Shown here one piece after another: positions 29,547-54,399 of a DNA stretch of 64,000 nt. Numbering within the stretch: position 1 is the stretch's first letter; each line of letters begins with the position of its first letter. The stretch is from Candidatus Saccharimonadota bacterium. GTDB lineage: Bacteria; Patescibacteriota; Saccharimonadia; Saccharimonadales; Saccharimonadaceae. A program made the translations under genes and the position numbers. The DNA lies in NCBI GenBank assembly GCA_017431105.1, contig JAFRLS010000034.1, positions 62,001 through 126,000 on the forward strand. The letters are read 5' to 3'. A model generated the notes under the pieces. The model worked only from the letters and a program-made list of their open reading frames with translations, was not told the DNA's origin and did no database searches.

Positions 29547-29617
29547 GTTACTGCTTATTTGTATGACCTTTTATGTTTATGATTATATGTTTTTTAATGG
29601 TAGGCGTCAAGAAAATT

Positions 29618-52915: not shown

Positions 52916-52992
52916 TGGTACACCCGACAGGATTCGAACCTACGACCTTTTGCTCCGCAAGCAAACGCTCTATCCAGCTGAGCTACGGGTGC
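52916..52992 (-). tRNA. tRNA-Arg(GCG), CCA encoded
   Basis: On the minus strand: acceptor GCACCCG/CGGGTGT, A73, encoded CCA; anticodon arm TTTGC-TTGCGGA-GCAAA with anticodon GCG, reading CGC (and CGU by wobble). Most bacteria use ACG (inosine) here. Confidence 0.93.
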
Positions 52993-53161: not shown

Positions 53162-54169
53162 TTAGAATTTAACTTTCTTTCTAGTAGCAACTTTTAATAA
53201 GCATGATACCAAAATTACTGTGGCAATGGTCGCCGGCAAAACAATCGGCATGAGCTTGCTCACCGCTTCGTCATTTGTGATATTGCCAGTGTCTGGGACT
53301 CCGAGATCTTTCTTAGACCCCGATTCTGTGGATTTAGGTTCTTCGTCGCCAATTTCGTCCGACCCGGTGCCTGATGTCTCATCCTGATTAGCGTTATTAT
53401 CTAGGCTGCTTTTATCGATAAATAAATCAAAACCTTCGTTCAAGTCCGTGTCGATATGGATGCTGGATACTTTCGTAATATCGGATATAGAGACGATCCT
53501 ACTGTTCTGATCATACCCATACTTCACAAATGCAGTAGTTACAAAAGCATTGCCAGAGGTAATAAACTTTAAATTACTTAAGTCGATTGTATACCCGCTA
53601 CCATTCTTAACTAATTCCAAATCATTGTATAACATACTTCCTTGAGCTTTGATAAGTTCCAGGTCTGGGTTTTTGGAGATGTCTAAAGTTTGAATATTAT
53701 TGTCGTCGGTCGCCGTAACTTCGTATGATTCAACTTTTAGAGTTTTTAATTTGATATTTTTCGTAATATCTAACACATTCAGCTTATTGCGCCGAACGTC
53801 AAGTTCCAAAAGTTCAGTGTTCTTGGATAGATCGATCTCTTCTATCTGGTTGCCATAAAGTTTTAATGAGGTAAGGCTGGATAATTTTTCCAGACCAGCA
53901 ACGCTGGCAATTTTATCGATTTCCGCAGAATTATTATTGTTGCAATCTAGGCTAGTTACTTTTAGCAATTCTGCATCTGTTAGGATGTCAGTCTGATAAT
54001 CTTTGGTCTCTCCTTCTTTATTATTATAGGCAGTAACTACACATTGGTAGAACCGTTCGTCTTCAAATGCTGTATGCACCGCTGTTTTGGCGAAAGCTCC
54101 CTGACTAGCGAGGAGGCCATAACCAACTGCGCCTATAGTGGCAGCGGCTAAATAGAGTTTTTTATTCAT
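53162..54169 (-). CDS. Secreted leucine-rich-repeat surface protein
   Basis: 335 aa. Signal peptide (LAAATIGAVGYGLLASQGAFA), then LRRs of internalin type (LTSLKLYGNQIEEIDLSKN, LLELDVRRNKLNVLDITKN, IQTLDISKNPDLELIKA), a polar Asp/Ser/Glu linker, a VPDTG motif, a hydrophobic segment (IVLPATIATVILVSCLLKVA) and a basic tail RKKVKF. VPDTG before a membrane helix and basic tail looks like a sortase or membrane anchor, though the helix starts 13 residues after TG. The promoter upstream is phase-variable in design. Confidence 0.88.
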   Translation of the reverse strand: MNKKLYLAAATIGAVGYGLLASQGAFAKTAVHTAFEDERFYQCVVTAYNNKEGETKDYQTDILTDAELLKVTSLDCNNNNSAEIDKIASVAGLEKLSSLTSLKLYGNQIEEIDLSKNTELLELDVRRNKLNVLDITKNIKLKTLKVESYEVTATDDNNIQTLDISKNPDLELIKAQGSMLYNDLELVKNGSGYTIDLSNLKFITSGNAFVTTAFVKYGYDQNSRIVSISDITKVSSIHIDTDLNEGFDLFIDKSSLDNNANQDETSGTGSDEIGDEEPKSTESGSKKDLGVPDTGNITNDEAVSKLMPIVLPATIATVILVSCLLKVATRKKVKF

Positions 54170-54213
54170 TTTGGTTTCCTTTGTTTATTTTTTTGTATAA
54201 CCTTTATGCTTTT

Positions 54214-54241
54214 ATTCTACCCCCCCCCCCGAAAAAGTCAA
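54214..54241 (-). promoter_or_regulatory. Poly-G spacer promoter of the LRR gene
   Basis: On the minus strand: TTGACT (54241-54236), TTTTC then eleven G (54230-54220), TAGAAT (54219-54214). The spacer is 16 nt, one short of the optimum, so slippage by one G would change promoter strength. SD AAAGGAAA lies near the ATG at 54169. Confidence 0.85.
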
Positions 54242-54309: not shown

Positions 54310-54399
54310 GGAAGCGTGGCCGAGTGGTTGAAGGCGCACGACTCGAAATCGTGTGGGCGCGCAAGCGTCTCGAAGGTTCGAATCCTTTCGCTTCCGCCA
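54310..54399 (+). tRNA. tRNA-Ser(CGA), CCA encoded
   Basis: Acceptor GGAAGCG/CGCTTCC, discriminator G, encoded CCA; anticodon arm CACGA-CTCGAAA-TCGTG with CGA (reads UCG); class II long variable arm GGGCGCGCAAGCGTCT. Confidence 0.95.

Follow-up and report, generated by a model that had tools for sequence, protein, structure and literature searches.

A poly-G promoter spacer as a predicted contingency switch for a surface-protein gene in Saccharibacteria

The promoter of a predicted surface-protein gene in a Saccharibacteria genome contains a run of eleven G residues (G11). We interpret it, at a probability of roughly 0.87, as a poly-G contingency promoter in which slippage would alter the output of a leucine-rich repeat (LRR) surface protein. 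The locus appears to be one of a genus-wide set of promoters lying mostly before secreted or anchored proteins. Poly-G runs of varying length recur before dozens of surface-protein genes, so bacteria of this genus probably turn the production of some coat components on and off through a miscopied run of G. Coordinates refer to the window, the whole 64,000-nt stretch of DNA that was analysed, and the features of the locus are as follows.

53162..54169, minus strand: gene for a 335-aa secreted LRR (internalin-J-like) surface protein, with signal peptide, LRRs, VPDTG motif, transmembrane (TM) helix and basic tail
54177..54182, minus strand: AAAGGA, the likely ribosome-binding site, assigned from the sequence
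54194..54210, minus strand: conserved leader AGCATAAAGGTTATACA, common to other secreted-protein genes of the genome and genus
54214..54219, minus strand: -10 hexamer TAGAAT (sequence and promoter scan)
54220..54230, minus strand: G11 tract abutting the -10, the proposed slippage element (sequence)
54220..54235, minus strand: 16-nt promoter spacer, TTTTC plus G11 (sequence and promoter scan)
54236..54241, minus strand: -35 hexamer TTGACT (sequence and promoter scan)

On direct reading, positions 54214-54241 are ATTCTA-C11-GAAAA-AGTCAA on the plus strand and TTGACT-TTTTC-G11-TAGAAT on the minus strand, exactly the G11 run and 16-nt spacer between two hexamers that an earlier note on this DNA had described. 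The promoter is of the sigma70 type. Its hexamers each match the consensus at 5/6 positions (10/12 for the pair in the promoter scan), and the -10 lies 45 nt from the ATG of the LRR gene at 54169. Eleven uninterrupted G's exceed the roughly eight taken as the minimum for a homopolymer between -35 and -10, and the 16-nt spacer is close to the functional 17 nt, the most frequent length among ordinary promoters from these loci.

Taken by itself, the pair of hexamers does not stand out from shuffled sequence, with 6 promoter-like sites in a 1.9-kb scan against 5.3 expected; the generic scan, which cannot tell TTGACT/TAGAAT from chance, was left out of the evidence. This result would suit a chance homopolymer without function, with the true promoter elsewhere. 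We judge that reading very unlikely, as the leader follows the -10 directly both in the LRR gene and in other secreted-protein genes, and the poly-G promoter pattern runs through the genus. Moreover, apart from the G11 tract the genome (879,622 nt) has no run of G≥9, and Markov models built on the window predict 0.01-0.09 runs of G≥11 per genome.

The assignment of the promoter is independently supported by AGCATAAAGGTTATACA, which occupies the same place after the -10 in other secreted-protein genes of this genome. Five exact copies of the leader core, AAAGGTTATACA, are present in the genome, each before a gene whose product has a signal-peptide-like N-terminus (judged by eye), and the other four of these genes have -35/-10 spacers of 17 nt (by-eye count). 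Two further near-matches to the leader come after -35/-10 pairs with spacers of 17 and 18 nt, and copies of the leader lie on contigs C3, C36 and C43 as well. Among the leader-bearing genes of this genome, only the LRR gene has a poly-G promoter. Transcription is predicted to start just upstream of or within the leader, which may act as a signal for a surface regulon, at the RNA level or through a regulator. A leader-like AAAGGTCATACA is also present in the window at 29560-29571 (minus strand), after a -35/-10 pair with a 17-nt spacer and before a long open frame (L345).

Promoters of this kind recur across the genus. A search of 174 species genomes of the same genus with the pattern TTGA-N2-14-G7-N0-6-TANNNT places poly-G between -35 and -10 in 57 of them, against 8 matches for the reversed pattern and 8 matches in 7 genomes with C7 in place of G7. 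Once double matches and chance-like ones are dropped, about 84 distinct poly-G promoters remain, and the tract adjoins TATAAT in nearly all. In a phylum-wide sample of 380 genomes, a stricter pattern is found in 21 (1 match for the control); the genus is therefore rich in poly-G promoters.

The same recurrence bears on whether the G run could be an artefact of assembly or sequencing, arising from Illumina two-colour poly-G or contamination. The assembly, a draft in 43 contigs, has an estimated contamination of 7.7%, and poly-G tracts of the genus lie close to contig ends beyond expectation, as an artefact might produce. However, spurious G's would not land between TTGAC and TATAAT in 57 genomes. 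The G11 tract is also internal to a contig longer than 160 kb and belongs to a coherent promoter, leader and gene, and the leader recurs on the three contigs named above. We give this explanation almost no credence.

The strict pattern TTGAC..G9..TATAAT is also found on at least 120 stretches from gut Clostridia, Bacilli, Treponema, Helicobacter, Streptococcus and others (the named contigs being L088-L167), and among the matches listed 58 of the 74 downstream products that could be read begin with a signal-peptide-like segment. On this sequence evidence, many uncultured gut bacteria may carry poly-G switches in their promoters.

Poly-G and ordinary promoters also differ in spacer length. Promoters without poly-G in the same fetched DNA show a sharp peak, with 17 nt in 30/55 (range counted 13-25), whereas exactly 17 nt is found in only 11/78 poly-G promoters (Fisher P 1e-6, indicative only, since the genomes compared are related and non-independent). 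The 78 poly-G spacers are spread over 14 nt (3), 15 (14), 16 (9), 17 (11), 18 (11) and 19 (16), with a long end at 20 (6), 21 (4), 22 (2), 23 (1) and 25 (1). As this set was picked for having poly-G, the leader served as bait in a second test that ignored the G's. It gave 42 promoters: 30 ordinary, 6 with an interrupted G tract and 6 with pure G≥8. The ordinary promoters have spacers of 16-19 nt (17 nt in 17/30, 16 nt in 8/30) and the interrupted-G promoters 16-18 nt, whereas the pure-G promoters have 14, 15, 16, 17, 18 and 20 nt (Levene P 5e-4 for pure-G against ordinary spread, again indicative only). The spacing constraint is lost in pure G tracts only, which is expected of a spacer that slips and not of one that stays fixed.

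A fixed spacer, in which the G run is an invariant part of a working promoter that tunes its strength or binds a regulator, is an unlikely alternative on these data. It would accommodate the present 16 nt, a common length among ordinary promoters of the class (8/30), and the strong preference for poly-G over poly-C, which slippage alone does not demand. It fits poorly with pure-G spacers that span 14-25 nt across the genus where interrupted-G and ordinary ones cluster at 16-18, with near-identical paralogs up to five G's apart, and with a pure G11 that would be expected to be unstable without MutS/MutL.

The poly-G spacers show a dip at 17 nt, with 11 in the genus at this length, 14 at 15 nt and 16 at 19 nt. 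In gut bacteria, among the matches listed, spacers of 16, 17 and 18 nt number 23, 8 and 37, within a range bounded by the search pattern. The tracts centre on G9-G10, and the stretch ahead of the tract usually measures 6 or 9. It may be that the majority of cells lie slightly away from the spacing optimum.

Tract length differs between related copies of the promoter class, both among paralogs and among species. Paralogous promoters with flanks 93-99% identical are up to five G's apart: G15 and G10 in L248/L250 (flanks 97% over 70 nt), G10 and G14 in L236/L237 (93%), G11 and G10 in L251/L252 (96%), and G10 and G9 in L231/L234 (99%). A further candidate, on contigs C1 and C19 of genome G123 (G17/G16), was rejected as a single locus in two lengths; its flanks are not the same (94% over 52 nt), and the two are therefore counted as similar loci. 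In genome G101, the assembler placed a run of N, a scaffold gap, within a poly-G tract (L305), and 8 of 83 poly-G tracts lie no more than 120 nt from a contig end against 1.1 expected. The contig-end excess is suggestive of length change, and both it and the N gap could also be caused by repeats, repeated promoters or poor poly-G reads.

The lineage also appears poorly equipped to correct slippage. MutS (PF00488) was not detected in 60 genomes and MutL (PF01119) was not detected in 40, the genome with the LRR gene included in both, while 11 of 14 control genomes match for each. One paper likewise describes MutS and MutL families as common to two other phyla of the Candidate Phyla Radiation (CPR) and not to Saccharibacteria (PMC8406219). 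This result fits rapid slippage.

The genes behind poly-G promoters are enriched in secreted products. By a simple hydropathy rule, a signal-peptide-like N-terminus without an inner TM is found in 54% of 70 such products, against 17% of other open reading frames at these loci and 19% of those in the window (P 4e-9). The enrichment agrees with a switch, for which the earlier note names a secreted LRR protein with a C-terminal anchor as a typical target. Pfam matches among the products include FISUMP (9), Listeria-Bacteroides repeats (7), TM2 (3), LRR, T4SS pilin and others, and a minority of products have no signal peptide. One group without a signal peptide shares an N-terminal W[DE]S[VL] or W[DE]xV/L...(PFAG) motif (L213, L214, L223, L244, L247, L264), and a Pfam scan gave no identity for this group.

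Intragenic poly-G tracts of 9-12 are also present near the 5' end of surface-protein genes of the same genus (L304, L306, L307, L308, L309, L315, L321), several of which are FISUMP-like. L306 and L308 keep an open reading frame across the tract, and L304, L307, L315 and L321 are out of frame, a mixture that translational phase variation would give.

The product of the gene behind the G11 tract has the features of a secreted protein with a C-terminal anchor, as the earlier note had proposed: an N-terminal signal peptide and, at the C-terminus, VPDTG followed by a hydrophobic helix and an RKKVKF tail. A surface-exposed product is usual for a contingency locus, if not strictly defining, and these features point to one. 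The LRR assignment draws on weak matches, to Pfam LRR_4 (E 6e-4, 20.5 bits against a curated cut-off of 27) and, partially, to NCBIfam internalin J (E 7e-11, far under its full-length cut-off). The repeat pattern is nevertheless visible in the protein and recurs in its homologs, which also carry a [VT]P[DE]TG motif (found in L005-L012). A single-sequence AlphaFold model has a pLDDT of 36 and does not confirm the fold. The features expected of a sortase anchor are present, namely an [LVT]P[DE]TG-type motif, a hydrophobic stretch, a basic tail and a sortase in the genome, which carries three sortase genes (PF04203) at C27, C36 and C43. The protein is thus a predicted sortase-anchored surface protein; anchoring stays a prediction because 14 residues lie between VPDTG and the helix.

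The LRR gene has the interval between tRNA-Arg(GCG) at 52916-52992 and a divergent tRNA-Ser(CGA) at 54310-54399 to itself, and this interval may be an insertion site for variable surface genes. A search of the genome contigs with the LRR protein as query found no relative. In other species, a homolog in G035 has a TTGACA..G14-TAATAT promoter, an LRR-region match in G053 adjoins TTGACA..G14-TATAAT, and a homolog in G056 has an interrupted tract, G4AG5 (TTTTGTGGGGAGGGGG). Ordinary promoters precede most of the homologs identified in other species, and conservation of the LRR gene therefore does not extend to the switch. The switch appears, from these sequences, to have been gained and lost within the gene family.

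RNA polymerase requires about 16-18 nt between the -35 and -10 elements. In the mechanism we propose, the G11 tract would gain or lose single G's during replication through slipped-strand mispairing, and such errors would stay uncorrected because MutS/MutL repair was not found in the lineage. Each change would shift the -35/-10 distance around the 16-17 nt required by the polymerase, and cells would come to carry much, little or no LRR surface protein. The assembled spacer of 16 nt would be workable, and the sequenced cells may be ON or intermediate; as 16 nt is found in 8/30 ordinary promoters of the class, the present length is not to be assumed OFF. One more G (G12) would give a 17-nt spacer and the predicted maximum, while spacers of 14 nt or less, or 19 nt or more, would be near off.

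The slippage switch put forward in the earlier note is supported by the genus-wide recurrence, the loosened pure-G spacing, the secreted-gene enrichment, the failure to find MutS/MutL and the paralog tract differences. For the G11 locus itself, we infer both slippage within the population and its effect on transcription. The note's label of epibiont is reasonable for this species by its Saccharibacteria lineage, from which epibiosis is presumed.

Homopolymer slippage in a promoter spacer is a known type of switch, as the note had stated. A 17-nt spacer is reported to be best for both Neisseria meningitidis porA and Treponema pallidum tp0126 (PMC7864442). The porA promoter likewise has a pure G tract in its -35/-10 spacer ahead of a surface-protein gene, and the same source describes transcription as lost once the 17-nt spacing is shortened. 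It differs in phylum, envelope and gene, and in that its switch is experimentally proven where that of G11 is deduced; porA is also one locus among many repeat types, whereas the Saccharibacteria promoter poly-G recurs across a genus. The tp0126 promoter shares the pure G spacer tract and a predicted surface product (PMC7864442 and its reference 15). It belongs to a spirochaete, encodes an OmpW homolog of the outer membrane and has had its expression measured.

In Bifidobacterium breve, also a gut bacterium, G11/G12 tracts act on a sortase-dependent surface structure, a sortase-pilus; slippage was measured there and promoter-spacer G-tracts are also mentioned, but the tracts studied are intragenic and form a translational switch (PMC9187656). 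A repeat gene of Gracilibacteria BD1-5 likewise shows local hypervariation in a CPR bacterium, in this case through coding 9-mer repeats with no promoter homopolymer (PMC6851277). The mechanism is thus already known from porA and tp0126. The genus-wide Saccharibacteria set is the wider finding, and we found no report of it, nor any on-point report of phase variation in Saccharibacteria, Patescibacteria or the CPR, among the open-licence papers searched.

These observations bear on host choice and host change by epibiotic Saccharibacteria, which have very small genomes. At this locus, the switch may serve host-surface recognition, or escape from phage or host. For the genus as a whole, we lean towards a 'phasome', in which each genome would carry a number of poly-G promoters that slip independently of one another, together with some intragenic tracts, ahead of LRR, FISUMP, TM2 and further surface or secreted proteins. 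The absence of MutS/MutL would sustain it; each epibiont cell would show a random subset of its surface proteins, and the population would hedge over host cells or phages. If true, a switchable surface set would offer concrete genetic grounds for clonal variation in host range, and it would account for individual surface genes that may seem dispensable or silent in culture. The simple signature TTGAC..Gn..TATAAT could serve to list candidate host-interaction proteins in uncultured lineages.
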